A stretch of DNA of 41,949 bases, from positions 1-41,949 of the forward strand of contig QKHS01000032.1 in assembly GCA_003249955.1 (NCBI GenBank), given 5' to 3'. This document shows, piece by piece, positions 13,389 to 29,658 of the stretch. Under the pieces are notes generated by a model, which ran no database searches, was not told where the DNA came from, and saw only the letters and a list, made by a program, of their open reading frames with translations. Positions within the stretch are counted from its first letter, which is position 1. Each line of letters opens with the position of its first letter. The translations under genes and the position numbers were made by a program. Source of the DNA: Bacteroidales bacterium (GTDB taxonomy: Bacteria > Bacteroidota > Bacteroidia > Bacteroidales > ML635J-15).

Positions 13389-14561
13389 TTAAATTTTTAC
13401 AGAGTCTTTCAGCAATTTATTCGTTACACAAACATTTTCGTTTTTTATGTTTTGAATATTATCCAATATCTGTGAAATGTCGTCTTCTGTAATATTTCCA
13501 AAGCTTTTCCCTATAAAGGGGCAAGGCTTAACATTACCGGCCGGGTCAATATAAATAAATAATCTTCCGCCTACACAGCCGCGTTTTGCTTCCCATAAAT
13601 CGGGAGAATACGTGATTGGCAGATTTTTATAATCTGATGATTTCTGGTTTTTTGTTGTTAAGCTTTCGAGTTGGCTGAAATCTGTAAGATTGAAACTGCC
13701 GTACTCATCGTTTAGCACATGGTGCATTTGTCTCGGGGAATAGCAATTTATAAAATGAGCTCCCTGCTCTCCGGCAAAATCAACATATTCTTTAAATTCT
13801 TTTTCCTGAAGTAAAGTCTTCCCGAAAACGCTGTCTATTGCTACAAACAGTCCGGTTTCGTTGGCTGCTTTTATTGCATCTGTCGCGTAAGAAAATGCTT
13901 TTGGAGTTCCTTTTACTGAATTGATATGTTCTGCATTAATTGAATCGAGGGAAATCATAACGCCTTTTAATCCCAAATCTTTAAGAACTGCCAGCTTTTC
14001 CCTGCCAAGCTGGTATCCTGTGGAAAGCAACCAGAACCGCGTTTTGCTTTTGCTGAATTTTTGTAAAATCTTTGTCAGGTCATTCCATCTCATCATTGGT
14101 TCTCCGCCCGATAAATAAATACTTCTAATTCCTTTCTGTATAAGGCTTTCAATTGTAGAAATTATTATTTCAGGGCTTAGCCTTTCTTCTTGCGTGTGAA
14201 GATCGGAATTGTAGCAATATCTGCATTTAAACGGGCATTTTGACGTAATGCAAATAATGGCAAAAACAAGTTGCGGTTGTTTGTTATGGTTTATCCATTC
14301 AATATCTTTTAATACATATCCGATAAAATCTTTTGAATTAACAGGCGGCATATCGGGAACAGCAATTATTTCCCTGCCAGCCTTAACATATCTGTTAGGG
14401 GTTGTATTAAAAAGGCATCTGCTGTCTTTAAAATATTTGTTTAATTCTCTGAATGCTTTAAAAAAACCAAAGCGTGAGATAGCTTTTAAGTATAAACGAA
14501 CTGCAATTTGCAGGTCTGTCAGTTTTTTATTAAAGCCATATATAAATTTAGTCTCTGACAT
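13389..14561 (-). CDS. Radical SAM protein with partial SPASM-like C terminus
   Basis: A 390-residue radical SAM enzyme that would cleave S-adenosylmethionine to start radical chemistry. The cluster motif is Cys109-x3-Cys113-x2-Cys116 (KCPFKCRYCY), followed by the SAM-binding LSGGEPMMRW and the beta-strand segment GLKGVMISLDSIN. The C-terminal part has RGCVGGRLFIYIDPAGNVKP and CPF before GNI, resembling a reduced SPASM/twitch region with few cysteines. The N-terminal 95 residues are an extension of unknown role. Its ATG shares one base with the stop of the GNAT-like gene, so the three-gene cluster is probably translationally coupled. The substrate is not identifiable; peptide maturation or small-molecule modification are both possible. 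Confidence 0.88.
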   Translation of the reverse strand: MSETKFIYGFNKKLTDLQIAVRLYLKAISRFGFFKAFRELNKYFKDSRCLFNTTPNRYVKAGREIIAVPDMPPVNSKDFIGYVLKDIEWINHNKQPQLVFAIICITSKCPFKCRYCYNSDLHTQEERLSPEIIISTIESLIQKGIRSIYLSGGEPMMRWNDLTKILQKFSKSKTRFWLLSTGYQLGREKLAVLKDLGLKGVMISLDSINAEHINSVKGTPKAFSYATDAIKAANETGLFVAIDSVFGKTLLQEKEFKEYVDFAGEQGAHFINCYSPRQMHHVLNDEYGSFNLTDFSQLESLTTKNQKSSDYKNLPITYSPDLWEAKRGCVGGRLFIYIDPAGNVKPCPFIGKSFGNITEDDISQILDNIQNIKNENVCVTNKLLKDSVKI

Positions 14562-14968
14562 TATTTAAGTGTTGTTTCAAAAACGGCATACTCACTGTCG
14601 GGTTCAGCCTTTTTTCCGCTTATCCTTTCAATATATTTTATTGCCATATTAATACTGTCTGTGTTTTCTTCAAAAATAAAGCCTCCGGTTCCGTATTTGT
14701 ATCCGGCTGCGATAACGTCCTGCATCATCTGATTCATCAAAGCCATTTCAATACCTTTTTTCCTGAACTCCGGAGCAATTCCTATTTCGGTGAATCTGAA
14801 TGTGTTTATAGGGTTGAAAAGCTTAAACCGGATGACGTCCTGGCTGTAATTGCTGTTGGCTTTTAACTCACGGTTTCTTTTGAGCAGTTGGTTGAAGTCC
14901 GGGAACCAAAATAAAAAACCGACCGGTCGGTCGTGAAAAACCGACCGGTCGGTCGTGGTATTCAGCAA
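14561..14968 (-). pseudogene. 3' part of the frameshifted GNAT-like acyltransferase
   Basis: This frame carries the C-terminal half of the acyltransferase: DRPVGFLFWFPDFNQLL, then IGIAPEFRKKGIEMALM, which resembles the acetyl-CoA-binding motif A of GNAT enzymes, and a C terminus ending FETTLK. No credible start exists (the nominal TTG at 14968 lies in the duplicated segment). With a single copy of the 22-bp duplication the upstream frame reads straight into it. The stop overlaps the radical SAM ATG by one base. Confidence 0.8.
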
Positions 14969-15689
14969 ACAACAAATTCTCGTTTTTCAGTAAAAACTGA
15001 AACTGCTCAAACAGTTCCAGATCTTCAGGTGCATTTCTGTTTGCCCAGAACGGATGTTCACGGAAGCAGATATTGTTAAGTTCTGTGTAAATCTTTGAAT
15101 ATTCCGGCAGATTCTTTTTGTCTGATTTCCTGATGCTTATGTTTTTGTCTGTTTTTATTCTGGCACTAAGCTTTTTGTAGTCTTCTGATATTTGTGCGTG
15201 GAAACTGAAAGATACTATTTTTCTTGCCTTGAGTTTACAGAAGTAGTCTTTGTAGTACGGCATGCTATAAGGCAACCCGAAAACCGGAACCTTGTCAAAA
15301 TTATTAAGTAAAATTCCGGCCCCGTAGTTCAGGTGTCCGTTTAATCCAAAGCAGATTTTATTTTTATCAGGGAAACGTCTTTTTGCTTCATTTATAATTT
15401 CTTCTGCAATGTTTTTTAATCCTTGTTTTGCCTCGAAAAAAGCGACCTGGACGTAATCGGGCAGGAGAGTGTCTGATATAAAAGCAAATCTGCAGACAGG
15501 CGAACCATCTTTTTCGACTATTACCGGATTTACCTGTGCATGTTTATGGAATTCTGACGGACCTTCAACAACAAGCTTTAAAACATCATCTTCGGATGAA
15601 CGGTAATAAGGATTTTTACGATAAATTTCGTTCCCGGTTTTGTAAAACCGGTCAAGGTCGTTTGCTGTATTTACATCAGTGAATTTCAA
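14868..15689 (-). CDS. GNAT-like acyltransferase, 5' part (frameshifted by 22-bp duplication)
   Basis: N-terminal 273 residues of a protein that should be about 375 long. It resembles a GNAT-fold family whose members show a FF-E-(n) strand, GLNGHLNYGAGIL and a GLPYSMPYYKDYF segment; all three are seen here. The likely start is TTG at 15689, whose bases overlap the stop of the preceding decarboxylase-like gene; there is no usable ATG in frame upstream before a stop. Reading is normal up to EYHDRPVGF and then passes into the second copy of a 22-bp repeat, giving a nonsense tail ending in AQKKP. The acetyl-CoA-binding half lies in the next frame (to 14561), so this product alone should be inactive. 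Substrate unknown. Confidence 0.78.
   Translation of the reverse strand: MKFTDVNTANDLDRFYKTGNEIYRKNPYYRSSEDDVLKLVVEGPSEFHKHAQVNPVIVEKDGSPVCRFAFISDTLLPDYVQVAFFEAKQGLKNIAEEIINEAKRRFPDKNKICFGLNGHLNYGAGILLNNFDKVPVFGLPYSMPYYKDYFCKLKARKIVSFSFHAQISEDYKKLSARIKTDKNISIRKSDKKNLPEYSKIYTELNNICFREHPFWANRNAPEDLELFEQFQFLLKNENLLFAEYHDRPVGFSRPTGRFFILVPGLQPTAQKKP
14914..14957. repeat. Exact 22-bp tandem duplication in the GNAT-like gene
   Basis: Copies at 14914-14935 and 14936-14957 are identical over all 22 bp. Each contains the 14-bp palindrome ACCGACCGGTCGGT. Because 22 is not a multiple of three, the second copy shifts the frame. A single copy restores the sequence EYHDRPVGFLFWFPDF across the junction. Confidence 0.95.
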
Positions 15690-16831
15690 ATGAATATTTC
15701 TTTTGGCTTTTCAAATCCTAAGAAAGTTGTGTACATCGATGCGCAATATGCCCCGGCATTTCCCAAAATAATAAAATCTCCTATTCCGGCTTTTGGCAAT
15801 AGCGCATCGTGTGACAAAAAATCTCTGGAATAAGTAGAACAGCCGTTTATTTTTGTTCTGATTTTATTTTCATTCTTTATCAGGCCGTTTTTATCCAGAA
15901 TCCAGACAGGGTGAAAAGAATCGTCAGGATATAACAATGGTCGCGGGAATTGTGCAGAACATGCATTTACCCCAATAAACTGAATGTTGCTTCTGAATTT
16001 GACATCTGTTGTATGGCAAATAAAATATCCTGATTGTCCGCCAAGAATCCGGCCCGGTTCGATGATAAGTTTTACCATCCTGCCTTTTGTTTCGGAGAAG
16101 TCTGTCATTAACTTCGTAACGCTTTTGCCATAAACTTCAAAGTCGAAATTTTGTTTTCCGGTATCATCAATACCAAAGCCTCCGCCGAAATCAATATATT
16201 CAAGATCAGGGAAATCCTTTGCCAGTTCAAGAAGAATTCTGTAGTAGCCTAAAAAGTAGTCTATATCCGTTATGTCTGTGCCGATATAAATGTGCAGGCC
16301 ATTGATAAGTTTTTTGTTTTTTATGGATTTTATTTCTTCAATACTTAATCCCAATCTGCTGTTTTCTCCGATAAAAATACCTGCTCTGCCCGATTTTGGG
16401 GTAAATGCTTTATTTCCGATATTGCACCTTATTCCTGCCGGCTTGCCGGGAAAATTTTCAAACCAGTAATCCAATTGCGAAAGAGAATCGAGATTTACAT
16501 AAATATTTTCGTCGTGAACTTTATGCATCATCTCCCTGCTTATTGACGAAGCTGTAAAAATGATTTGCTTACCACTAAACCCTGCACTTTTTACTTCGTC
16601 AAGGTGTAATTGAGAGTTCACAAATACATTCAGTCCATGGTTTTTGATGATTTTTAAAAACTCAGAATTGCAGTTTGCCATAGTTGCGAAGTGAACTGCG
16701 GTGTCGGGATAAGTAATGTTTTTGAAGTTATTACAGATCTGAATTATTTTATCTTTATCATACACGTAAACCGGTTCTTCACTTTGTAAGGCTTCTGCTT
16801 TTATCCATTCCGGTATTTTCTCTGACAGCAT
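15686..16831 (-). CDS. Fold-III PLP decarboxylase-like protein lacking the catalytic lysine
   Basis: A 381-residue protein (ATG at 16831; an in-frame TTG at 16858 would add nine residues) with the architecture of diaminopimelate/ornithine decarboxylases: N-terminal TIM barrel and C-terminal beta domain. Retained features are YIDFGGGFGIDD (phosphate-binding loop), IIEPGRILGGQSGYF, the FPRPLLY segment and the C-terminal GNAGAYCASMY. However, the segment HFATMANCNSEFL has Met51 where these enzymes have the Schiff-base Lys (usually xxxKAN). The motif normally carrying Cys near the end (C-x-S-x-D) reads GCSTYSRDFL, with Thr in the Cys position and the Asp kept. As a PLP decarboxylase it should therefore be inactive or altered. 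It is the first gene of a cluster with the GNAT-like and radical SAM genes. A TAAATTTG -7-like element lies at 16908-16915. Confidence 0.85.
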   Translation of the reverse strand: MLSEKIPEWIKAEALQSEEPVYVYDKDKIIQICNNFKNITYPDTAVHFATMANCNSEFLKIIKNHGLNVFVNSQLHLDEVKSAGFSGKQIIFTASSISREMMHKVHDENIYVNLDSLSQLDYWFENFPGKPAGIRCNIGNKAFTPKSGRAGIFIGENSRLGLSIEEIKSIKNKKLINGLHIYIGTDITDIDYFLGYYRILLELAKDFPDLEYIDFGGGFGIDDTGKQNFDFEVYGKSVTKLMTDFSETKGRMVKLIIEPGRILGGQSGYFICHTTDVKFRSNIQFIGVNACSAQFPRPLLYPDDSFHPVWILDKNGLIKNENKIRTKINGCSTYSRDFLSHDALLPKAGIGDFIILGNAGAYCASMYTTFLGFEKPKEIFI

Positions 16832-16924
16832 ATTGTTTGTTTTCGTATGTGATTTCAATATTACAATATTTTTTTGATTAACGGGCTATCTTAGGGTTTA
16901 TTGTTCCCAAATTTAAGAGCAAAA

Positions 16925-16974: not shown

Positions 16975-19900
16975 TTAGTTTTTGTTGAATTTTCTGATAT
17001 AGTTTTGTTGATTATCTCTTAAATTTAAAATATACATTCCAGGTTTGAAATTGCTGATGTCAATTTTTTCATAGATATCAGTATTGCCAGTGGTTAATTT
17101 TCCGCTCAAAACAACCTGTCCTGTGATGTTAGTAATGTTCCAGCAAATTTCATCCGAATCAGTATTTGAAAGTTTAATATTCAGTATGTCGCTGACAGGA
17201 TTTGGATAAATCATCAGGTTTTCGTCGCTGTTTGTAAATTCAACATTAACAAAAGGAGTAACAATTCCTGAGCAAGATACATTAATATTAGCAGCTCCGC
17301 CACCGGATATAGCTATCATTTCAGAATCGTAGTTTCCTACAGCCAGACCTGATTTAAGTCTTGCGAAAACAGTAGTTTCAGTTCCGTTATATGCACTGAT
17401 TACGATAGGAGTACTCTGGAATCCTGTTCCGGTAGTTAATGAAATTTCATAATCTGCAGTTGGAGTAATGGTTACATCTGAGCCATCGAGGAATTCTCCG
17501 CTTAAAACATAAGATTGTTCAGCAGACGGACCAAATCCGGATACGTATGTAAATCCGCTCAGACTGGTTGGATTAGCAGTAAGAACTGCTTCAGGAGAAT
17601 AAGCTCCGCAGTAAACGCTGATGTTATCAATGAAAGCTCTTTTGACGTCAGTTGCAATCTTTATTTTTGACAACTCTGTACCATCGTTTATTTGCAAACT
17701 GTATGACTGGAACTCAGTTGCAGGAGTAATATCAACACCAACCTGAACAAAGTTTACTCCGTCGCTTGCATGGAAAATCTGAATTACCGAAGCATCTGTT
17801 CCCCATTTTGCATAATCGAAATTTAACGAAGCTCCCTGGGTAAGATCAATAGCCGGAGTAATAATATAACCATTTGCAGATGATGTTCCGAGTTTAATTT
17901 CTCCTCCTGCAGAATATATTTTTAATCCTGTCCAACCGGTAACCATAGTGTAAGTATCAAGAGTTTCAGATATGTCTGTTGTTGAAGGCGCTTCGTGTGT
18001 TCCTGTTGTGAATCCGCTGAAATCTTCTTCCAGACAAGGATATGCGCTGCCATCGGTAACACTGCCGTTGCAGGTTACTGTAACATTGCCTGCACCACCT
18101 CCGGAAATTGTAATAACTTCAGAATTGTAATCCCCTACAGAAAGATCTGTAACAAGTCTTACATAAACTGTAGTATTTGTTCCGTCAAAAGCAGAAATGG
18201 TAACAGGTGTACTTTGGAAACCTGTTCCTGAAGTTAAAGATATTTCATAATTTGTTGATGGTGTTATGCTTACATCGCTGCCATCAAGTCCTGCTCCGCT
18301 TAAAACAAACGATTGTTCTGGAGACGGTCCATTGCCGGAAAGGTAATTAAATCCGCTTAAACTTGCAGGATCAGCAATGAGTGTAGGCTCTACATATTCT
18401 GTAACGCTTCCTGAGCATGTTACAGTAACATCACTTGCACCACCGCCGGAAATTGTAATAACTTCAGAATTGTAATCTGCTGCAGAAAGATCCGCAATTA
18501 ATCTTACATAAACTGTGGTATTTGTTCCGTCAAAAGCAGAAATTGTAACAGGAGTACTTTGGAATCCTGTGCCTGTAGTCAGAGATATTTCATAATCTGT
18601 TGATGGTGTGATAATCACATCGTTGCCATCCAGATTTATTCCGCTTAAAGTAAACGATTGTTCAGCAGAAGGGCCGGAACCGTAAATGTAATTAAAACCA
18701 TTTAAGCTTGCAGGATCTGCAGTTAATGTTGCTCCCGGAATATCGCTTACACTTCCGTTACAGGTAACAGTAATATCGCTTGCGCCACCACCTGAAATTG
18801 TAATAAGTTCAGAGTTGTAATCTGCAATCGCCAGACCTGCAATTAATCTTACATAAACAGGAGTAGCTGTTCCATCAAAAGCAGTGATAGTAATCGGAGT
18901 ACTTTGGAATCCTGAACCTGAAGTTAAAGATATTTCATAATTTGTTGAAGGAGTAATAGTTACATCTGTTCCGTCAAGAATTGTTCCGCTTAAAACAAAA
19001 GATTGTTCAGCAGAAGGGCCTGAACCGGTTATGTAATTAAAATCGTTCAAAACTGCAGAACTAACACTAAGTTCCGGAGTTGGAACAATACCACCGCATG
19101 TCACTTCAATATTATCAATGAATGCACGTTTAATATCTGTGCCGATTTTAATTTTTGATAATGGTGTTCCGTCAGTAATATCAATACTTGCTGTTTGGAA
19201 TCCGGTTTCTGGTGTAATGTCAGTACCTACCTGTACAAATGTAACTCCGTCACTGGCATGGAAAACCTGAATTACTGAAAGATCTGATGCCCATTTAGCA
19301 TAATCGAAACTTAAAGTTCCTCCAGCAGTGAGATCAATAGTTGGAGTTACAATATAGCCATTATCGCCACTGACTCCGATTTTAATTTCACCACCTGCTG
19401 AATAGATTTTGTAACCTGTCCAGCCTGGTATTGCAGTGTAAGTGTCAAGAGAAGTTGCTATATCTGTAAAACTTGGGGATGCATGTGAGCCATCTGTAAA
19501 ATTGTCAAAATATTCAGCTAAACAAGGTGCTGTTACTGGGTCTAAAACGCTGCCGTTACATTCAACAGTAATGTCAGAAGCGCCACCACCCGAAATTGTA
19601 ATTAATTCAGAATTGTAGTCGCTGATAGCAAGACCTGCGATTAATCTTACATAAACCCCGGTGTCGGTACCATTAAAAGCAGCAATAGTAACCGGAGTGC
19701 TCTGGAATCCTGTTCCTGAAGTTAAAGATATTTCGTAATTTGTTGAAGGAGTGATGATTACGTCGCTGCCATCCAGACTGGTTCCGCTTAAAGTGAAAGT
19801 TTGTTCAGCAGACGGACCTGATTCAAAAAGATAATTTAACCCGCTTAAACTTGCCGGTATAGCAACCAGGGCCGGACTTGGGATTTCGCTTACGTTTCCG

Positions 19901-22191
19901 CTGCATGTTACGGAAACGTCGCTGGCACCACCACCTGAAACAGTAATTAGTTCAGAATTGTAATCTCCGGCAACAAGACCTGCAATTAATCTTACAAAAA
20001 TCTGAGTGTCGGTTCCGTTATAAGCAGAAATTGTAGCAGGAGTGCTCTGGAATCCGGTACCGGAAGTTAAAGAAATTTCATAATTTGTTGATGGGGTGAT
20101 AACAACATCACTGCCATTAAGATCTGTTCCGCTTAAAATAAAAGATTGTTCAGCAGAAGGGCCTGAGCCTGCAATGTATGTAAAGCCACTCAACTCTGAA
20201 GGAGCTGCAAGCAGTGTTGGTGACGGCATATTGCTTACGCTTCCGCTGCATGTTACGGAAATATCACTGGCACCTCCACCGGATACTGTAATAAGTTCAG
20301 AATTGTAATCTCCGGTAACAAGGCTTGCAATTAATCTTACATAAATCTGGGTGTCTGTTCCGTCATAAGCAGCAATTGTAACAGGAGTGCTCTGGAATCC
20401 GGTTCCTGAGGTCAGAGATATTTCATAATTTGTTGAAGGTGTGATAACAACATCACTGCCATTCAGATTTGCCCCGGAAACTGTGAAAGATTGCTCAGTT
20501 GAAGGACCAAATCCCTGTACATACGCAAATCCGCTGAGTATTGAAGGATTAACCGAAAGAACCGGGTCTGTAGAGGCACCACAAAATACTTCAATATTAT
20601 CAAGAAAAGCCCGTTTTATATCAGTTCCGATTTTTATTTTTGACAATGCTGTTCCGTCGGTAATGTTGATACTGAATGTCTGAAAATCGACATCAGGAGT
20701 AAGGTCTGAACCAATCTGAACAAAGTTTACACCGTCAGCAGCATGAAAAACCTGCACTACTGAAACATCAGTGCTGTATTTTGAATAATCAAAATTTACA
20801 GAACCTCCTGCTGAAAGGTCAATAGTAGGAGTAATAATATAGCCGTTTGAACCTGAGGCTCCTAACTTTATTTCACCACCAGCAGAATATATTTTGAAAC
20901 CTGTCCAACCTGTTGTAGCAGTGTAGGTATCCAGTGAGGCAGAAATGTCTGTGGTTGCAGCAGAAGCATGAGAACCGGCAGTAAAACCGCTGAAATCTTC
21001 AGCGAGACAAGGTGTAGAAGATGGATCTGTAACACTTCCGTTGCATTCAACACTAATGTCAGAAGCTCCGCCACCTGAAATTGTAATTAATTCAGAATTG
21101 TAATCCCCCAGAGTGAGGGATGCGGTTAATCTTACATAAACTTCTGTATCAGTTCCGTCAAAAGCGGTAATAGTAACAGGTGTGTTCTGGAATCCTGTTC
21201 CGGAATTCAATGAAATTTCATAATTTGTTGAAGGGGTGATAGTTACATCACTTCCATCCAAAGTTGTTCCGCTTAATGTAAAAGATTGTTCAGCCGAAGG
21301 ACCTGATCCTTCAAAATAATTTAATCCGTTTAAAATTACCGGGTTTGCAGTTAAAACCGGACTTGGAATATCGCTTACACTTCCGTTGCATGTAACTGAA
21401 ATATCACTTGCACCACCGCCTGAAATTGTAATAAGTTCTGAATTATAATCTGCAATTGAGAGACCGGCAATAAGCCTTACATATACGTTTGTGGCAGTCC
21501 CGTCAAAAGCAGTGATGGTAATAGCGGTACTCTGGAATGATGTCCCGGAGGTTAAGGAAATTTCGTAATCAGTTGATGGCGTAATTGTAACATCTGTTCC
21601 ATCCAAGGTTGTTCCGCTAAGGGAGAAAGATTGTTCAGCAGAAGGACCGGAGCCGGTGATATAATTAAACCCGCTCAGTGTTAAAGGTGTAGCATCAAGT
21701 GTTGCAGAAGCCGGAGCAAATCCGGTAATTGAAATAGCATCAATTCCGGCACCTATAGCATCAATTGTCCCTTCAACATAAAACTTGATCTGAACTTCTG
21801 TTCCGTTATAGGCAGATAAGTCAAATTCAGTCATGTCTGTTAAAGTGTTTGTTGCAGGAACTCTCGTTCCTAAAATAGTCCAGTCAACACCATTGTTGGT
21901 TGAGATGGCAACCGTAATTGTGTTTTCGGCTTCATTAGTACCACCATAAGTTCTTGCTTTAAAGTTTAAAGCCTCACCGGTGTAATTGTCGAAATCCATA
22001 GTAGGACTAACTGTGGACGAGGTTGCTTTTAGCAATTGCAGATACGTGGTTCCTGCAACATCTGTATCCGTCCATGTGTCAAATCCTGATACATCAGTTC
22101 TTACAGGAATAATATTTTCCTGTGCGTAGCTTTGTCTGATTCCTGATAACAAAATAATTGTACCAAGAAATGCGAATAAAATTTTCTTCAT
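16975..22191 (-). CDS. Giant T9SS-secreted repeat protein (nine 115-residue repeats, three jelly-roll modules)
   Basis: A 1738-residue exported protein. Signal peptide 1-23 is followed by a jelly-roll-like domain (about 30-155, FKARTYGGTNEAENTITV). Then come repeats R of about 115 residues, each with GSGPSAEQSF, SGTxLDGSDVTITPSTNYEISL, a VYVRL strand, NSELITISGGGASD and a Cys in TCNGSV. Order: R1 R2 J1 R3 R4 R5 J2 R6 R7 R8 J3 R9, where J is a 145-residue domain (DFSGFTAGSH, WTGFKIYSAGGEIKLG, LDNIEVFCG). The last 85 residues (LMIYPNPVSDILNIKLS to YIRKFNKN) are a T9SS type A sorting signal, so it is exported and surface-attached or released. Probable adhesin or matrix protein; no enzymatic domain seen. 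Own terminator follows. Confidence 0.9.
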   Translation of the reverse strand: MKKILFAFLGTIILLSGIRQSYAQENIIPVRTDVSGFDTWTDTDVAGTTYLQLLKATSSTVSPTMDFDNYTGEALNFKARTYGGTNEAENTITVAISTNNGVDWTILGTRVPATNTLTDMTEFDLSAYNGTEVQIKFYVEGTIDAIGAGIDAISITGFAPASATLDATPLTLSGFNYITGSGPSAEQSFSLSGTTLDGTDVTITPSTDYEISLTSGTSFQSTAITITAFDGTATNVYVRLIAGLSIADYNSELITISGGGASDISVTCNGSVSDIPSPVLTANPVILNGLNYFEGSGPSAEQSFTLSGTTLDGSDVTITPSTNYEISLNSGTGFQNTPVTITAFDGTDTEVYVRLTASLTLGDYNSELITISGGGASDISVECNGSVTDPSSTPCLAEDFSGFTAGSHASAATTDISASLDTYTATTGWTGFKIYSAGGEIKLGASGSNGYIITPTIDLSAGGSVNFDYSKYSTDVSVVQVFHAADGVNFVQIGSDLTPDVDFQTFSINITDGTALSKIKIGTDIKRAFLDNIEVFCGASTDPVLSVNPSILSGFAYVQGFGPSTEQSFTVSGANLNGSDVVITPSTNYEISLTSGTGFQSTPVTIAAYDGTDTQIYVRLIASLVTGDYNSELITVSGGGASDISVTCSGSVSNMPSPTLLAAPSELSGFTYIAGSGPSAEQSFILSGTDLNGSDVVITPSTNYEISLTSGTGFQSTPATISAYNGTDTQIFVRLIAGLVAGDYNSELITVSGGGASDVSVTCSGNVSEIPSPALVAIPASLSGLNYLFESGPSAEQTFTLSGTSLDGSDVIITPSTNYEISLTSGTGFQSTPVTIAAFNGTDTGVYVRLIAGLAISDYNSELITISGGGASDITVECNGSVLDPVTAPCLAEYFDNFTDGSHASPSFTDIATSLDTYTAIPGWTGYKIYSAGGEIKIGVSGDNGYIVTPTIDLTAGGTLSFDYAKWASDLSVIQVFHASDGVTFVQVGTDITPETGFQTASIDITDGTPLSKIKIGTDIKRAFIDNIEVTCGGIVPTPELSVSSAVLNDFNYITGSGPSAEQSFVLSGTILDGTDVTITPSTNYEISLTSGSGFQSTPITITAFDGTATPVYVRLIAGLAIADYNSELITISGGGASDITVTCNGSVSDIPGATLTADPASLNGFNYIYGSGPSAEQSFTLSGINLDGNDVIITPSTDYEISLTTGTGFQSTPVTISAFDGTNTTVYVRLIADLSAADYNSEVITISGGGASDVTVTCSGSVTEYVEPTLIADPASLSGFNYLSGNGPSPEQSFVLSGAGLDGSDVSITPSTNYEISLTSGTGFQSTPVTISAFDGTNTTVYVRLVTDLSVGDYNSEVITISGGGAGNVTVTCNGSVTDGSAYPCLEEDFSGFTTGTHEAPSTTDISETLDTYTMVTGWTGLKIYSAGGEIKLGTSSANGYIITPAIDLTQGASLNFDYAKWGTDASVIQIFHASDGVNFVQVGVDITPATEFQSYSLQINDGTELSKIKIATDVKRAFIDNISVYCGAYSPEAVLTANPTSLSGFTYVSGFGPSAEQSYVLSGEFLDGSDVTITPTADYEISLTTGTGFQSTPIVISAYNGTETTVFARLKSGLAVGNYDSEMIAISGGGAANINVSCSGIVTPFVNVEFTNSDENLMIYPNPVSDILNIKLSNTDSDEICWNITNITGQVVLSGKLTTGNTDIYEKIDISNFKPGMYILNLRDNQQNYIRKFNKN
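17605..21690 (-). repeat. Higher-order direct repeat, period about 1485 bp
   Basis: Within the 1738-residue gene the block of three R repeats plus one J module recurs. Equivalent bases in the J modules lie at 17626, 19114 and 20599, i.e. spacings of 1488 and 1485 bp. Single R units recur about every 345 bp (landmark GPSAEQSF at roughly 17515, 18315, 18655, 19005, 19800, 20155, 20490, 21290 and 21640). There are two full higher-order units plus a partial third with only two R repeats. Confidence 0.8.
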
Positions 22192-22291: not shown

Positions 22292-25200
22292 TTAGTTTTT
22301 GTTTATCTTTTTAGAAATGCTGTGGGTGTCATCATATAATCTAATGTAATACATTCCTGACTTGAGATTTTCAGTTTCAATCTGGTCGAATGCAAAACCA
22401 CTTGTAATTAATAATTTAGATGTGTAAATTATTTGTCCTGTAATATTAGTGATTTCGTATTTTACAAATTCTGAATTCCAGTTGGATATACTGATGTTCA
22501 GGATGTCATCACAAGGATTAGGATAAATAATAACTTCTGCATTATTATCCGTGTAGCAGGTATTAACAATAATAGGGGAGTATTCGAACTTACCGTCGAA
22601 ATCAATTTGTTTTAATCTGTAGTATGATTTGGCATTATTGTTTTTATCTTCAAACTGATAGTTCAGAACAGCGTTTGAATTTCCGGCACCTTTTACAGTT
22701 CCCAGTATTTGCCAATTGTTGCCGTCATCACTTTTTTGTACCTCAAAATAATCGTTATTTATTTCGCTGGCAGTTACCCATTCAAGGTTTGCAACTGCAT
22801 TGCGGCATTTTACATCAAAATTTATTAATTCTACAGGTAACGGATTTGTATTGTTTTTTGCAATTGCAAAATCGGAGAAAGATGTTATGTTATTACGGAA
22901 AGCATAAACAGTTCCGCCTGTAATTAACTGTGTTGAGTTGTTGTGATTTCCGTAAAGTCCCCAGTCAGATGAAGCATTGGTACGTTTAATTACCGTATGC
23001 TGATCTGCTGTAGCTCCTGCATTCGAAGAGCCGTTAAGGCTTAAACCTACGTTGTAATTAACTGTAGTAGTTCCGGCATTAGGAGTAATTGTCCAGAATC
23101 CGCCATCGAGAACGGTCTCAACAGCAACGCCTCCATATTCCAGTCCAAGAGCAGAAATATCCAGATCTGCTCCTCCGATCGGATTAAAGCTTGCGTCAAG
23201 ATATGTCATTCCGGCAGAACTGTTAAGTGCAATATTTGCAAGTTCGTAGTTTGATGAATTACCCACAGGAATATCGTAACTCCCGGTTGGGTTTACCTGT
23301 CTGCGTAAATTGCCGTTTATATATGATGCATCAGAATAGTTGCTTAGGTTTGCTATTGCAGGATTTGTAACATATACTCTGTCTGATCCGGTATTTACAA
23401 GGCCTGATGTTAAATTCAGATTATTAACATTGATATTATCACTTAAATTAATATTTCCGCCTGATTTATTAACAACAAGAGTTCCGAAAGTTTCGGTTCC
23501 GTTGTTGGCTGATATATTCTGATCTGCTGATCCGTTCATTGTAATACTTATTCCTGTTGCATCAATAGCAGCATCAGAATGAACATAATAGTCTCCTCCA
23601 ATTTCGAAATTGTTTGAATTGGCATTTGCTGTTGCTGTGTTTTCAATGCTGAAATCATTATTTACTACAATTGTCTGTCCACCTGAAACCGGGTAAACTT
23701 CTAGGTCTCCTCCCTGTACATCCAGTGAGTAAAGTTCGGCAGCAACAGCACTTGTTCCGTCAGAATCAGACAAAATCATATCTCCGGTTACATTTGCTCC
23801 TGTAAAACGGACGATGCCCGTAAGATTATAATTGGAAGCTCCGTCTCCGCCAAGGAACAAATCATCATCGGTCTGAATTATGCTTCCGTTATCGGTAAAC
23901 AGGCTTGTTCCTGTCATGTTAAAATCTGCCCATGTCTTTATAAACAAGTCGGATCTGCCTCCTGTTGAAGACAGAGTTATGTTTGCATCTGTCTTGTCTG
24001 CCGCAATTGAATATGCTTTGATTGCATTCCCGCTGCCTTGCAAAATCTGGGATGTCGAAGACGATAAAATAACAGAGAGATTTGATTTACAGTTGTCGTG
24101 CATAGTAGCTCCGTTTTGTAAAACAATATTCCCGTCAATGTTTAATGAAGATCCTGCTGAAGACATGTTGAAGATACTGTTGTCAACCAACAAACCGTTT
24201 TCAATATCAAGCTTATCAGCAATTGTTTTGGTTCCTCCGCCTGACATTGCAAGGCTGTTTAAGGCTAATGTTACAAGAGTGGCAGCTTCGGAATTTACCG
24301 ATTGGTCTGTTGTTCCGTTTAGAACAAGGTCAGCTTTTGAACTTAAGAATCTTGTGTTATCATCGATTATAATGTCGCCTCCAACTTCAACGTGAACTGC
24401 ATTTGTGTTGAAATTAACGCTACCGCCTGTCAGTTCAAAATCTCCGCCAACGAATAACTGCGCACCATCAACATTATAAATGTCTCCTATTACATTGATA
24501 TCATTACAATATGCCAGAGAGTCTGCATGTGCACTTAAAACAAGGTCGTATCTGTCAGCAGCATGAGCCGGGATTTCGACATTTATTGTAGCGTCAGGAA
24601 CAACCAGACTATACCAGTTTCCGCAATTACACCACTGTCCGTCTTTATAACCTGCCCATTTACCACTGGTTAAATCGCCGGCTTCAATGCTGATAGTCTG
24701 TCCGTCCTGTTTGTAAAGCGGTAAGTTTGCATCATAATCAACATTGTCTGCCCAACCTGTCCAGTTGGTCGGATCGTTGACTCTGCCTATCCATTGGGTT
24801 CTGTTTGCGGCAGTCAGGCTTCCGGTATATTTTACTTTGGATTTGTTTGTAAGTCCTGATACATTGGTAGTAGCACATTCACAACCAGGATAAATTGTTG
24901 ATCCGGCAGTATTGTCATAGCCCGGGCTTGTGTACCAGCCTATAGCGGTCCATCCGTAAAGTACATTTCCTGAATAAGTTGCATTATGTGTACCTGCCGG
25001 ATCTGACCATGTTCCACCCTGCATTACCCATATCTGGTCGGAGTCGTTAAAATTAAAACCTGAACCATTGCCTAACTGAACACATGTCCAGTTTGCATTA
25101 TCAAGATCTCCGTCAAGATATACATTTACATTTGATCCGAAAACAGGAGATGCTACGTTTCCGACAGTCTCAAAAGTAATTACCTTACCGGCACCTATAT

Positions 25201-28200
25201 TTGAATTCTGACGTGTAAATCTTAAAACTCCTTCAGAATCTGCCCAAAGTCCTGCTGTAACTCTCTCATAACCATTGTCGGTAAAATCTATGGATGTCCC
25301 GTTTGCTATTGCTTTAAAAGAAACAATGGAAAACTCGTCCCCGTCGGTACCCGAAGTGTTTACTGCAAATATTGCCAAATCGCCGTATTGCAGAATTGTA
25401 ACAGTTGTAGGATATAATATAAGTTCAACACCTGCCGACCATTGTGTTCCCTGACGGACAAATATTGTTGCATAATAAGTTAAGTCATTTGTCAACCCGG
25501 TAACTGTCATTGATGTTCCGGTTCCTTTATAAATAACATACTCATTGGTACCTATGTCTGTTCCTGAGCCAAATACCGCATCAGCAGTATAGGAAGAGCC
25601 GTCACCACCCGGAGTTGCACTAACTGAAGCCCCTTCATGGCAAACGATAAGAACTTCGTCAAAACATGTTGCTCCCGGGTTATTCCATGTGAGTTCCGAT
25701 TCTGAATCGCCGTCAGCGTTGGAGTAGGTGTTTACATCAGATAATCCTAAATTAGAAACGGTCACAGTCGGACAATCGGTATTGGACAACCAGTTGGTTC
25801 CGGAATATGTATAAGCTTTTACTTTGTAAGTCTCACCTGCAGTCAGCCCTGTTACGGTAATTGATGTTCCGGTTCCTTTATATACTATGTAGGAATACGG
25901 AGTTGTTGAGCCAAATTCTGTTCCTGAAGCAAAATCAGCCACGGCCGTTAATGTAGAAGGATCTGTGCCGTCACTTATAGTATGTGGAACTAATGTGGCA
26001 GAATTGCGGAATGCAATTATTACTCCTTCATAATTCCCTGCAGGTGCAGTCCATGTTATTTCTGCAGTTGTGTTGCTTGTGCATCCTATATTCAGGTCGG
26101 TCACCGGAGCCAGAGTTACATTTCCGCTACATGCGAGAGTTTCACTTGTTGCGCCTGTTGAACTTATTGTTACATCTTCAAGATTGTATTCTCCTATAGC
26201 CAGACCTGCTTTCAGTCTTACATAAATTGTTGTAACGGCAACTGTATTTGATACCGGAGTCAATGAAACGGATGCGCCAAATGTTACATCATCATCAGAT
26301 ACTTCATAATCTGCAGGTGCTGTAACAACCAAATCGTTCGATAAACTGCTTCCTGAGACAGTAAAAGTCTGCGATGCAGCAGGCCCGTTACCATAAATGT
26401 ATGTAAATCCTGTCAGGGCTGTTTCTGAAACTGATAAAGCAGGAGTAGTTACACTACCATTACATGTTACGGTTTTATCTGTAGCATCAGTGCTTGTTGC
26501 TGTAATATCTTCGTTGTTGTAATCCCCGGCAGCTAAACCTGCTTTCAGTCTTACATAAATTGTTGAAGAAGCAACTGAACCGCCTGATTGTGTTAAAGTG
26601 ACCGGATTTGTAGCAAGGAAAGATCCTCCTGATCCGGTTGAAATTTCGTAATTTGCCGGAGGTGTAATGCTGATGTCGCCGGTTAGATTGTATCCGGAAA
26701 TTGAAAATGATTGTTCGCTACTTGGTCCGTTGGAAACGACATAATCAAGTCCGCTGAGGCTTGATGGGTTTACTACGATAGTAGGCCCTGAAATTAATCC
26801 TGTTAATTGAATGTCATCAACATAATAATACTCAGAGACATCCAGACCCACAACTCTTAATCTTACACTTATCTGAGTTTCGGCATTGTCGATATTTACA
26901 GTCCATGGATTTGTGGCAACTGTTGTCGGATCTGCTCCGTTGGTATTGCCAAAATCAATCGGGGTATTGCTGTATCCGTCAATAAGTTTGACAGAACCTG
27001 CACCTGTCCATGTAGAACCGTTGTCGTATGAAATATCCAAATACAAATCTTCACCGGAGTCCGGTCCTGCTGCAGCAAATGCTACCGATAAAACAACATC
27101 GTCGTAAGCAGTAATATCAATATTTTCCAGGATAATGCTGTTGCTTCCGTCCAAACGTCCTGATTGGGTTCCGCCACTGAACTTTGTAGTAGATTCTGTG
27201 CATGTTCCTGTATAGGTCCATGTATCTGCAGGAGTTGCAGGATCAACTTCAAATCCCTGGTAAGCAAGAACCAGAGGAGCTCCTGAAACTGTAACAGTTC
27301 CGTTACAGCCGACGGTTTTGTCTGTGGCACCGGTACTTGTAGCAGTAATATTTTCGTTATTATAATCTCCGGCAATTAATCCGGATTTAAGTCTTACATA
27401 AACGGTCACAGAACTAACAGTCCCGCCGGACTGTGTCAATGTTAACGGAGTTGTATATCCTGAACCGGATGTAAGCGAAATTTCGTAATCTGCCGGAGCA
27501 GCGATACTTATATCTGATGTAAGATTTGCACCTTCGATGGTAAAGCTTTGTTCTGCAGAAGGCCCGCTTCCCTCAACGTAAGTAAAACCAGTAATAGTTG
27601 CCGGGTTTACATTTATTATTGGCTGGGTTATGTTTAATATCCCCGAAACATTCGAAGACCCGTCCCATGTACCACCGTTGTAACCACCGTAGGAATATTC
27701 ATCAGCGTTGGGGTTTACTTTAAACCTGCTGGCGTAGTAATAAGTTCCGGCACTAAGAGCTGATCCTATTTCTGCAACAAATTCATCATTATTTCCGCTT
27801 TGGGCATTAAATGTTGCTGCTACCCAGTTTGTCCATGTTGAAGGATCTGTATCGGCAGAATTGTAGCCTATCCAGCAACTTACATTTGCTCCTGCTCCTG
27901 CAGCTTCTGTAACTCCTGATTCATAAATCTGGGCGTAGGCATTATATGTGTCACCAACATTAATAGTCCCGCTTGCAGGCCATTGAAGATTGCACCAGTC
28001 CGGATAATTGGAATTTATTGTTAATATGCCCGAAACATATGTAGTTCCGTCCCAGAAGCCACCTCCGCTTCCGTTATATCCTCCGTATGAGTATGTTGTC
28101 CCTCCGTTAAGTGAAAAACGGCTGGCATAGTAATATGTCCCGGCAGAACTAATTGAAGATCCTATATTTGCAACATATTCGTCATTATTTCCGTTGTCAG

Positions 28201-29245
28201 TGTTGTAGCTTGCCACTACCCAGTTTGTCCATGTGTCAGGGTTTGTATCTGAACTATTGTAGCCTATCCAGCAGGTAACACCTGCTCCCTGGCCTGCGGC
28301 TTCGGTTAATGAAGGTTCGTAAATCCGGGCATATACGTTAAACACTCCTCCTGTGGTAATTGTTCCGTTGCCCGGAGACTGAAGATTGCACCAGTTAGGG
28401 TAATCGACAACATAACCGCTGCATGTAACAGTTTTATCAGTTGCTCCCGTACTGCTTGCTGTAATGACTTCTGAATTATAAGTGCCTGCAGATAATCCAG
28501 ATTTTAATCTTACATAAATAGTAGTTGTTGTAACGCTACCGCCTGATTGAGTTAAAGTCAGAGGACTTGTATAACCGGAACCTGAACTAAGAGATATTTC
28601 GTAATTTGCCGGAGCCGCAATACTAATATCGGAGGTAAGATTACTGCCTTCAACTGTAAATGTTTGTTCTGCCCCAGGCCCTGCATCTTCGGTGTAACTG
28701 AAAGCGGTGAGAGTGGAAGGAGATACTGTTATCAGAGGTGTTGATCCGGCAAATGTTGTTGTTGAGAAATCATCAATATATATAGTTGCGCCGGTTCTGT
28801 ATATTTGAATTTTATTAACAGAAGAGTTGTTTACTGTAATCGTTTTTAAAGTTTTTGTTGTAGAGATTGTAAACGGAGATCCGGGAGCAGCAGCCCATGA
28901 AACTCCGTCATCCGTTGATATATTAACCTGATAAGCTCCGCTTGATGTTGATGCTGTTACATAAAAGGAAATTTCTCCAACGCCACCGGATAAGGTCGGA
29001 GTTATTATCTGAGCCCCTGTAGCACTTCGGATTTGAGCAGATTTTGTTCCGGAGTTTACTCCTGTAGTTCCGGCGATAACATTTTTCACCTGCCAATCGC
29101 CTGAAGAAAGAGTGGCAGTTATAAGAGAAGTATTATAAGAACTTGGTAAACCTGATTCAAAACTTTCACTTATTTGACCAAAACTAACCGTGCATAAGCA
29201 CAAAAACACAGAAATGCTAAAAAGAATTAATAAGCCTTTTTTCAT
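22292..29245 (-). CDS. Giant T9SS-secreted multidomain protein (2317 residues)
   Basis: Translation from the ATG at 29245 gives a clear signal peptide (MKKGLLILFSISVFLCLC, ending VSFG); an in-frame upstream start would bury it. Domains in rough order: jelly-roll 25-175; R repeat; two Trp-rich modules of about 115-130 residues (about 278-535, each WCNLQxP...VTCWIGYNSxDT...YYYASRF); R repeat; jelly-roll (about 650-825, with VDDIQLTG); two R repeats; two fibronectin-III-like modules (about 1045-1280, each with YKGTGTSxTVTGLT); a lamin-tail-like module from about 1283; a long beta-helix-like stretch rich in NG/GD turns (about 1540-2100); the ELINFDVKC...YYRLKQID spacer; and a T9SS type A sorting domain (about 2235-2317, IYPNPCDDILNISIS). 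Likely an extracellular adhesive or structural protein; no catalytic residues recognised. Confidence 0.88.
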   Translation of the reverse strand: MKKGLLILFSISVFLCLCTVSFGQISESFESGLPSSYNTSLITATLSSGDWQVKNVIAGTTGVNSGTKSAQIRSATGAQIITPTLSGGVGEISFYVTASTSSGAYQVNISTDDGVSWAAAPGSPFTISTTKTLKTITVNNSSVNKIQIYRTGATIYIDDFSTTTFAGSTPLITVSPSTLTAFSYTEDAGPGAEQTFTVEGSNLTSDISIAAPANYEISLSSGSGYTSPLTLTQSGGSVTTTTIYVRLKSGLSAGTYNSEVITASSTGATDKTVTCSGYVVDYPNWCNLQSPGNGTITTGGVFNVYARIYEPSLTEAAGQGAGVTCWIGYNSSDTNPDTWTNWVVASYNTDNGNNDEYVANIGSSISSAGTYYYASRFSLNGGTTYSYGGYNGSGGGFWDGTTYVSGILTINSNYPDWCNLQWPASGTINVGDTYNAYAQIYESGVTEAAGAGANVSCWIGYNSADTDPSTWTNWVAATFNAQSGNNDEFVAEIGSALSAGTYYYASRFKVNPNADEYSYGGYNGGTWDGSSNVSGILNITQPIINVNPATITGFTYVEGSGPSAEQSFTIEGANLTSDISIAAPADYEISLTSGSGYTTPLTLTQSGGTVSSVTVYVRLKSGLIAGDYNNENITATSTGATDKTVGCNGTVTVSGAPLVLAYQGFEVDPATPADTWTYTGTCTESTTKFSGGTQSGRLDGSNSIILENIDITAYDDVVLSVAFAAAGPDSGEDLYLDISYDNGSTWTGAGSVKLIDGYSNTPIDFGNTNGADPTTVATNPWTVNIDNAETQISVRLRVVGLDVSEYYYVDDIQLTGLISGPTIVVNPSSLSGLDYVVSNGPSSEQSFSISGYNLTGDISITPPANYEISTGSGGSFLATNPVTLTQSGGSVASSTIYVRLKAGLAAGDYNNEDITATSTDATDKTVTCNGSVTTPALSVSETALTGFTYIYGNGPAASQTFTVSGSSLSNDLVVTAPADYEVSDDDVTFGASVSLTPVSNTVAVTTIYVRLKAGLAIGEYNLEDVTISSTGATSETLACSGNVTLAPVTDLNIGCTSNTTAEITWTAPAGNYEGVIIAFRNSATLVPHTISDGTDPSTLTAVADFASGTEFGSTTPYSYIVYKGTGTSITVTGLTAGETYKVKAYTYSGTNWLSNTDCPTVTVSNLGLSDVNTYSNADGDSESELTWNNPGATCFDEVLIVCHEGASVSATPGGDGSSYTADAVFGSGTDIGTNEYVIYKGTGTSMTVTGLTNDLTYYATIFVRQGTQWSAGVELILYPTTVTILQYGDLAIFAVNTSGTDGDEFSIVSFKAIANGTSIDFTDNGYERVTAGLWADSEGVLRFTRQNSNIGAGKVITFETVGNVASPVFGSNVNVYLDGDLDNANWTCVQLGNGSGFNFNDSDQIWVMQGGTWSDPAGTHNATYSGNVLYGWTAIGWYTSPGYDNTAGSTIYPGCECATTNVSGLTNKSKVKYTGSLTAANRTQWIGRVNDPTNWTGWADNVDYDANLPLYKQDGQTISIEAGDLTSGKWAGYKDGQWCNCGNWYSLVVPDATINVEIPAHAADRYDLVLSAHADSLAYCNDINVIGDIYNVDGAQLFVGGDFELTGGSVNFNTNAVHVEVGGDIIIDDNTRFLSSKADLVLNGTTDQSVNSEAATLVTLALNSLAMSGGGTKTIADKLDIENGLLVDNSIFNMSSAGSSLNIDGNIVLQNGATMHDNCKSNLSVILSSSTSQILQGSGNAIKAYSIAADKTDANITLSSTGGRSDLFIKTWADFNMTGTSLFTDNGSIIQTDDDLFLGGDGASNYNLTGIVRFTGANVTGDMILSDSDGTSAVAAELYSLDVQGGDLEVYPVSGGQTIVVNNDFSIENTATANANSNNFEIGGDYYVHSDAAIDATGISITMNGSADQNISANNGTETFGTLVVNKSGGNINLSDNINVNNLNLTSGLVNTGSDRVYVTNPAIANLSNYSDASYINGNLRRQVNPTGSYDIPVGNSSNYELANIALNSSAGMTYLDASFNPIGGADLDISALGLEYGGVAVETVLDGGFWTITPNAGTTTVNYNVGLSLNGSSNAGATADQHTVIKRTNASSDWGLYGNHNNSTQLITGGTVYAFRNNITSFSDFAIAKNNTNPLPVELINFDVKCRNAVANLEWVTASEINNDYFEVQKSDDGNNWQILGTVKGAGNSNAVLNYQFEDKNNNAKSYYRLKQIDFDGKFEYSPIIVNTCYTDNNAEVIIYPNPCDDILNISISNWNSEFVKYEITNITGQIIYTSKLLITSGFAFDQIETENLKSGMYYIRLYDDTHSISKKINKN

Positions 29246-29658
29246 TTTATTTAATATTTTCAATTTACACTCAAACAAATATCCCCTATCAACAGGGGGA
29301 TTTACCTCAATTTTACAAAAATAAGCAATTTTATAACAGTAATTTCTGCTAAATGTTATGAAATCGTTATCAATTTTTTGTTTTTTTTCAAGTAAGCCTA
29401 AAAATTCAATGAAAACTAGTCTCTGTCTTGTTTTGAAGAAGATTTATTTTTTTTAACAATTGTTGAAAACCAGTATTTATTTGTGTATTAAAGATTGAAA
29501 ATATGATTATTGTGGTGTTTTTTCTCAGAAAAGTCAATATCCGTTTTTGTTTTTAAAGCAGATTAACGGGCAAATTCGTAAATAAGTGATAATCAGGCAT
29601 AAATTTCCGGTTCTGTTTTTTTACAGATATGAAAATTACATAATATGTTTTTTATGGT
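29246..29658. other. 413-bp intergenic region, AT-rich, with small inverted repeat
   Basis: Between two giant genes. ATCCCC (29281-29286) and GGGGAT (29296-29301) form a 6-bp inverted repeat lying over and just upstream of GATATTTG (minus strand, 29276-29283), a near-consensus -7 element 31 nt before the ATG at 29245. The rest is T-rich, with no gene and no clear terminator for the upstream gene (only a weak TCTGT/ACAGA hairpin near 29613). Confidence 0.4.

Follow-up and report, generated by a model that had tools for sequence, protein, structure and literature searches.

The lysine that forms a Schiff base with pyridoxal phosphate (PLP) is the textbook hallmark of PLP enzymes. When this lysine is missing, the usual internal aldimine and transimination are impossible, and when the catalytic cysteine is missing, the usual protonation step is lost. 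In diaminopimelate (DAP) decarboxylase, LysA, the glutamate that follows the catalytic cysteine also helps to bind the substrate. In the fold-III protein YggS, replacement of the PLP lysine by alanine (K36A) left PLP unbonded in the crystal pocket, with a dissociation constant of 124 nM versus 1.3 nM, according to an excerpt of PMC9601805. Here we describe a gene of the 41,949-nucleotide contig QKHS01000032.1 from a Bacteroidales bacterium (assembly GCA_003249955.1; the whole stretch is called the window). Its product has the fold of the DAP and ornithine decarboxylases but carries methionine at the position of the PLP lysine, and the gene and its product are referred to as the Met gene and the Met protein. 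The Met protein and its relatives form a clade in which this methionine is constant, and the Met protein is probably a repurposed protein, not the product of a broken gene. No description of the clade or of its genetic context was found in the open-access literature, whose coverage leaves out most subscription journals and preprints.

A decarboxylase fold without the Schiff-base lysine

The Met gene lies on the minus strand, with its start ATG at 16831 and its stop codon at 15686-15688 (Table 1). The frame is open from a TTG at 16858 (15686-16858) and the first ATG was taken as the start; the plus strand has stops throughout the region. Both domains of the protein were recognized by Pfam, PF02784 at 82.5 bits (cut-off 23.4) and PF00278 at 34.2 bits (cut-off 23). 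The top NCBIfam model was lysA (TIGR01048; 181 bits, E 2.7e-53), whose equivalog cut-off of 297.9 was not reached. An AlphaFold2 model made from 36 sequences (pLDDT 92.9, pTM 0.91) predicted a TIM barrel with a C-terminal sheet domain. When this model was submitted to Foldseek, DAP decarboxylases came top (1ko0, template modelling score, TM, 0.87), and the BtrK structure 7ru7 also reached a TM of 0.87. In a profile search of solved structures, the nearest ones bear the names of ordinary DAP decarboxylases (at most 188 bits), suggesting that no close member of the clade has been solved.

A preliminary description of the window had placed a methionine at the PLP lysine and a threonine at the catalytic cysteine, and alignment with the DAP decarboxylase structure 2yxx bore out both placements and their coordinates. 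Met51, encoded by ATG, lies in HFATMANCN opposite FAVKANNN of 2yxx, and Thr333, encoded by ACT, lies in GCSTYSRD opposite GPLCESGD. The motifs GGG (216-218), EPGR (258-261) and GAY (360-362) are present. Further pocket columns are altered, with Phe70 in place of Asp, His76 in place of Glu, Tyr182 in place of His and Tyr334 in place of Glu.

The pocket was compared over 41 distinct clade rows, 3 rows of a sister group and 93 distinct outside rows, after removal of duplicate protein copies and of L033, which has two stops; the clade row L087 ends before position 333. Ornithine decarboxylase (ODC) numbering follows the list of PLP contacts in an excerpt of PMC5518511, and was mapped by motif and spacing instead of by a residue-by-residue ODC alignment, leaving D332 and G171 unmapped. 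As shown in Table 1, the Schiff-base lysine (K69) is replaced by methionine throughout the clade and is invariant outside it; the sister rows also have methionine (3/3). The cysteine of the C-x-S-x-D loop (C360) is likewise replaced by threonine in the clade, and the sister has valine there. At the D88 position the sister carries glutamine, at E94 it keeps glutamate, and at H197 it shares the tyrosine of the clade (3/3). At the D361 position, 38 of 40 clade rows have Tyr and the other 2 have Phe; the sister has Leu, and 91 of the 93 outside rows have Glu. The S200 position is Thr in 41/41 clade rows.

On the other side of the pocket, R154 (Arg135), G235-G237, E274 and R277 are kept in 41/41 clade rows and Y389 with its G-x-Y motif in 40/40; D364 is kept as well, Arg297 is retained in 40/40 and Tyr301 in 38/40. 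The residues newly fixed in the clade are Asn72, His76, Arg159, Thr185 and Asp276 (41/41), Phe70 and Arg280 (39/41), and Tyr334 (38/40). At a threshold of 80%, the only lysine column of the clade was K278, which the outside rows also have, and no cysteine column was found at the same threshold. A register shift that would make Cys331 the catalytic residue was rejected; Cys331 is common, but other members have Ser, Asn, Arg or His in its place. Taken together, these rows indicate that the phosphate and pyridine-nitrogen end of the pocket has been retained and that the aldimine-forming and protonating end has been rebuilt. The earlier statement that the cofactor-pocket motifs are intact therefore holds for the former end (GGG, EPGR, GAY), but not for the latter.

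Table 1. Features of the Met gene and its neighbours in the window; residue counts are given as clade rows and outside rows
Feature	Position	Strand	Basis or residues found
Lysine-less decarboxylase-fold protein, 381 aa	15686..16831	-	Pfam, AlphaFold2, Foldseek
Met51 codon, PLP Schiff-base Lys position (ODC K69)	16679..16681	-	M in 41/41 clade rows; K in 93/93 outside
Phe70-Asn72-His76 (ODC D88/E94)	16604..16624	-	Clade F 39 + C 2, N 41, H 41 (of 41); outside D 91 + E 2, V 87, E 93 (of 93)
Tyr182 codon, PLP-contacting His position (ODC H197)	16286..16288	-	Y in 41/41; outside H in 92/93
Gly216-218, phosphate-binding glycine loop, kept	16178..16186	-	G/G/G in 41/41
Glu258-Pro-Gly-Arg261 (ODC E274/R277), kept	16049..16060	-	E and R in 41/41
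Thr333 codon, catalytic Cys position (ODC C360)	15833..15835	-	T in 40/40 rows reaching the position; C in 93/93 outside
Gly360-Ala-Tyr362 (ODC G387/Y389); Gly and Tyr kept, middle residue Ala or Ser in the clade	15746..15754	-	
GNAT-like gene c1, first piece; its TTG overlaps the Met gene stop by 4 nt	14868..15689	-	
GNAT-like gene c1, second piece, different frame	14561..14968	-	
Perfect 22-bp tandem duplication, junction of the two c1 pieces	14914..14957	-	
Radical SAM/SPASM protein c5, 390 aa, downstream of c1	13389..14561	-	

Distribution and descent of the clade

A protein 61% identical to the Met protein, with Met, Thr and Tyr182, was found in the same genus (genome G011), a 46% identical homologue in a different family of the same order (G057), and other homologues at 35-53% identity also carry the methionine. 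When 393 genomes of the order were searched by profile, seven (G000, G057, G280, G203, G292, G200 and G100) gave at least 294 bits, and the next match, at 187 bits, has lysine; residues were read for 29 of the 34 matches, four being unfetched and the fragment L033 unread. The copy in G100 is a broken fragment that stops short of position 51. Class-wide profile searches (395 and 245 genomes) returned five matches above 270 bits, all with Met, and the inspected ones at or below 241.2 bits have Lys, 20 loci having been read of 139 matching genomes and 20 of 43. These searches added the clade member L133 and the sister group L099/L134/L152. In a further profile search, with 30 of 52 matches read, Met was found in the sister G511 (213 bits) and Lys in the inspected matches from 189 bits down; all 24 places were read in a search with the window protein.

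A scan of 84,980 species genomes by pattern yielded 37 Met-gene loci, with Met51 in 37/37 and Thr333 in all 36 that reach the loop. The patterns required either the methionine or GLHxY; 18 loci matched both, 18 the methionine only and one the tyrosine only, and position 333 lies outside both patterns. The scan is thus independent evidence for Thr333 but not for Met51. Eleven rows were found without the Met pattern (the window, L003, L004, L029-L032, L079, L128, L129 and L133), and all have Met, the profiles concerned having been built from Met rows. The hosts of the 37 loci include Bacteroidota, Ruminiclostridium hungatei, a Spirochaetales bacterium, several Myxococcota or Deltaproteobacteria, a Krumholzibacteriia bacterium, Crossiella, Streptoalloteichus, Saccharothrix, Streptosporangium, Bradyrhizobium and an acidobacterium. 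By record labels, the clade members span eight phyla. Four plasmid records matched and residues were read in two of them, the plasmids of Mesorhizobium huakuii and Sinorhizobium meliloti GR4, whose members are 36% and 34% identical to the window protein and have Met, Thr and Tyr182. Among the four records, one gene is annotated as a diaminopimelate decarboxylase and one as an alanine racemase, and both annotations are very probably wrong. No relative of the Met protein was found in one scan of viral contigs.

In a tree of 56 rows, the Met clade was recovered with support of 100/97 and joined the Met-bearing sister L099 at 100/98. The tree program flagged six rows as long branches (L099, both rhizobial rows and three of the outgroup), which leaves their exact placement unsure. 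On this tree, M for K, N for V72 and Y for H were in place before clade and sister diverged; F for D, H for E and T for C arose afterwards or in parallel. Nine pairs were compared for the ratio of nonsynonymous to synonymous substitution rates (dN/dS; Nei-Gojobori, own script); seven gave 0.085-0.20, one gave 0.39 and one was saturated. The low values point to purifying selection, not decay, where they could be measured. The preliminary description had likewise spoken against random decay, and this view is upheld by the fixation of Met and Thr in a large clade and by dN/dS values mostly of 0.09-0.20.

In the sister family (L099, L134 and L152, also L130, L173 and L174), Met stands at the Lys position, Gln at that of Asp88, Val at that of the Cys and Tyr at that of His197; Glu94 is kept. 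The sister locus L173 adjoins genes that, by eye, resemble those of ABC transporters.

Gene neighbourhood of the Met gene

In the window the Met gene is followed by a GNAT-like gene, c1, in two frames, and by the SPASM-type radical S-adenosylmethionine (SAM) gene c5. The three-gene order of Met gene, c1 and c5 recurs in G011, G057, L076 and L086. Most other c1 loci have the Met gene, c1, c2, one to three or more B12-type radical SAM proteins and sometimes a methyltransferase, the c2 proteins giving weak PF13480 or FemAB-like matches. Over the 37 loci, c1 lies downstream of the Met gene in 28, and radical SAM genes (c3 or c5) are present in 27 of these 28, the remaining locus, L066, ending first. 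The radical SAM labels come from Pfam for the window, L068, L074, L078, L128 and L129, and elsewhere from models built from these same loci. The loci lacking c1 are L062 and L087, both cut by contig ends, L075, L089-L093 and L095. It had been suggested that homologues in the same gene context with Lys and Cys would mark the window copy as a simple inactivating mutation; all 28 loci with the GNAT-like gene have Met and Thr.

In the 393 genomes of the order, c1 matches above 330 bits occurred only in G280, G203, G292, G200, G057 and G000, which are six of the seven Met-gene genomes; c1 of G000 is in two pieces, of 335 and 167 bits. The seventh, G100, has a 99.5-bit C-terminal c1 fragment on a separate contig. 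The name GNAT-like is a soft one, since 18 of 20 c1 members matched Acetyltransf_1 at E 0.1 or lower (best 8.1e-6, one member just above the Pfam cut-off) and a search of c1 against the PDB gave nothing below E 0.04. A second c1 (391-395 bits) was found in G200 and G292 (L183 and L184), adjoining a protein that by eye resembles metallophosphoesterases. In L184, from G292, it is also accompanied by a c5-type SPASM protein, and no Met gene was present in the stretches read at L183 and L184.

The 22-bp duplication has a palindromic core and sits where c1 changes frame, and intact c1 relatives exist. A genuine disruption, phase variation at this site and an assembly error are all conceivable. At 16975-22191 and 22292-29278 on the minus strand, the window encodes very long, repetitive surface-type proteins of 1738 and 2328 amino acids, whose C-terminal ends by eye resemble secretion or sorting signals.

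Other loci surround the Met gene with different genes. In the two rhizobial plasmids, one SPASM and one B12 radical SAM gene directly precede it. On the S. meliloti GR4 plasmid pRmeGR4a (L129, 3320-9769), a QueA-like protein, a weak PqqD-like protein and an Rce1-like protease are also encoded, and the cluster looks like one for peptide modification. In Crossiella, Streptoalloteichus, Saccharothrix and Streptosporangium (L089-L092), the Met gene is followed by two spermidine-synthase-like genes, the second copies being assigned by our own model only, and by a methyltransferase; perhaps a different pathway is built around the same Met protein there. At the Bradyrhizobium locus, a single spermidine-synthase-like gene occurs together with genes for a methyltransferase, an ATP-grasp protein and an MFS transporter.

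A defence function was considered and rejected. In PADLOC, the radical SAM part of the SPASM protein matched viperin models (50 bits), and PDC-M51A was matched by the B12 radical SAM proteins (at most 41 bits); both were taken as superfamily resemblance. The Met gene and the two GNAT-like families gave no match.

Interpretation and comparison with known systems

The reading that we prefer, at about even chances, is that of a protein which does not decarboxylate and keeps PLP, or some other phosphorylated ligand, in its pocket without a covalent bond, as part of a SAM-driven pathway. On this reading the Met protein belongs to an old lineage within the DAP/ornithine decarboxylase fold, shared across phyla, in which Schiff-base PLP catalysis has been given up for good. 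Its site would still bind a phosphate-bearing ligand without a covalent bond, most likely PLP, pyridoxamine phosphate (PMP) or a PLP-amino acid adduct. The protein may act as a non-decarboxylating, ligand-holding component of a pathway for small molecules or for peptide modification, in which the neighbouring GNAT-like and radical SAM enzymes would carry out the reactive steps. That it presents the bound substrate to the radical SAM enzyme is the boldest step and purely hypothetical. In a stronger form, which we regard as rather improbable, the clade would be the first known stand-alone, lysine-free PLP/PMP subunit that hands an adduct to a SPASM/cobalamin radical SAM partner, or in the actinobacteria to a spermidine-synthase-like and methyltransferase partner. 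The amino-acid substrate would be captured as a PLP adduct in a pocket unable to decarboxylate it, and the activated adduct, once handed over, might allow chemistry that neither a PLP enzyme nor a radical SAM enzyme does alone.

Several observations weigh against the preferred reading. The AlphaFold model gives no cofactor, and with four PLP-contacting residues gone, PLP itself may not bind. According to excerpts, YggS K36A in solution formed a Schiff base through another lysine and variants that also lacked those lysines bound PLP weakly (PMC9601805), and antizyme inhibitor reportedly no longer binds PLP because other PLP residues have been lost (PMC3543441). Moreover, weaker c1 matches (128 bits at most) occurred in 79 other genomes of the order, indicating that the GNAT family is wider than the Met-gene cluster. 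The radical SAM models of the cluster found no match in the sequence retrieved for the four actinobacteria, Bradyrhizobium, L075 and L095, nor near the three sister proteins, and a radical SAM enzyme is therefore not an obligate partner of the Met gene. With c1 in two frames, the operon of the window copy may not be fully working.

The alternatives differ in what they make of the rebuilt pocket. An active enzyme with a new, lysine-free chemistry is unlikely but deserves serious attention. Its pocket (His76, Asn72, Tyr182, Thr333, Asp276 and Arg280) would perform acid-base or transfer chemistry on PMP, PLP or a phosphorylated substrate, in keeping with several polar residues newly fixed at 95-100% and free of drift, with the low dN/dS, and with a slot of its own for the Met gene in biosynthetic-looking operons. 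However, no reaction can be named for it, and the sister has Glu at the His76 position and Val at that of Thr333, so that these two residues are not needed by every Met-type protein. We consider improbable a ligand-free scaffold or regulatory pseudoenzyme, comparable to what antizyme inhibitor is to ornithine decarboxylase. The loss of the catalytic Lys and Cys fits such a role, and antizyme inhibitor is a relative reported, in an excerpt of PMC3543441, not to bind PLP; but a ligand-free scaffold would not need GGG, EPGR, G-x-Y, Arg135, Arg297 and Tyr301, which are nearly invariant, and no locus has a second cluster gene to be regulated as a paralogue (33 members in 33 loci).

It is very improbable that the protein is an ordinary PLP decarboxylase with its Schiff base on another lysine. 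YggS K36A did use another lysine (excerpt of PMC9601805) and the lysA score of 181 bits (E 2.7e-53) is substantial, but that score is far under the cut-off of 297.9, the one lysine column at 80%, K278, is shared with the Lys-type enzymes, and the equivalents of the Cys, Asp88, Glu94, His197 and Asp361 have been lost too. In the 99.8% complete genome G000, no lysA above the TIGR01048 cut-off was found, the Met gene scoring 182.4 bits and the second place 80.8, and 11 of 14 control genomes have a lysA above it; lysine auxotrophy or another lysine route is possible for G000. The idea that the Met gene serves as the LysA of its genome through a new chemistry was rejected, as 24 of 25 same-genus genomes gave no match to the window protein at 1e-10 and the gene thus does not track the need for LysA. 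A recent AAG to ATG mutation or a sequencing error in one genome, both raised in the preliminary description, is of negligible probability. The two codons are one base apart and the adjacent GNAT-like gene is disrupted in the window genome, but methionine occurs in 41/41 clade and 3/3 sister members, among them the same-genus homologue at 61% and others at 35-53% identity, which discards the mutation and rules out the error.

A whole branch of a central decarboxylase fold has dropped the Schiff-base lysine and the aldimine end of its pocket and kept the phosphate end. Its frequent GNAT-like, SPASM and B12 radical SAM neighbours mark gene clusters that occur in many environmental bacteria and for which the present analysis found no product. 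The testable question raised is which ligand a lysine-free decarboxylase fold holds and what is done to it.

Among known systems, LysA (TIGR01048; 2yxx and 1ko0) shares with the Met protein the two-domain fold (TM 0.83 and 0.87), GGG, EPGR, RPxxY, G-x-Y and the length. The Met clade differs from it in lacking the PLP lysine, the catalytic cysteine and the Asp/Glu pair of DxxSxxE, in having Tyr for His, and in having Thr-Tyr-Ser where LysA has Cys-Glu-Ser. The BtrK-type decarboxylases (2j66 and 7ru7) share the fold (7ru7, TM 0.87) and, by entry title, a place in a biosynthetic pathway, that of butirosin. BtrK is, however, deposited as an active L-glutamyl-[BtrI acyl-carrier protein] decarboxylase, and we take its Lys and Cys, both lacking in the Met clade, to be present. 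Antizyme inhibitor, the eukaryotic ODC pseudoenzyme (3btn and 4zgz), is also a decarboxylase-fold protein, reported to lack enzyme activity; according to an excerpt of PMC3543441, it mostly keeps the Lys and Cys and lost PLP binding by other changes, which is the reverse of the Met clade. The PLP homeostasis protein PLPHP/YggS (COG0325) has in common with the clade a fold-III barrel with no known catalysis, and its K36A variant held PLP non-covalently in the crystal (excerpt of PMC9601805); it has a single domain and a native PLP lysine, whereas the Met clade has two domains and no such lysine.

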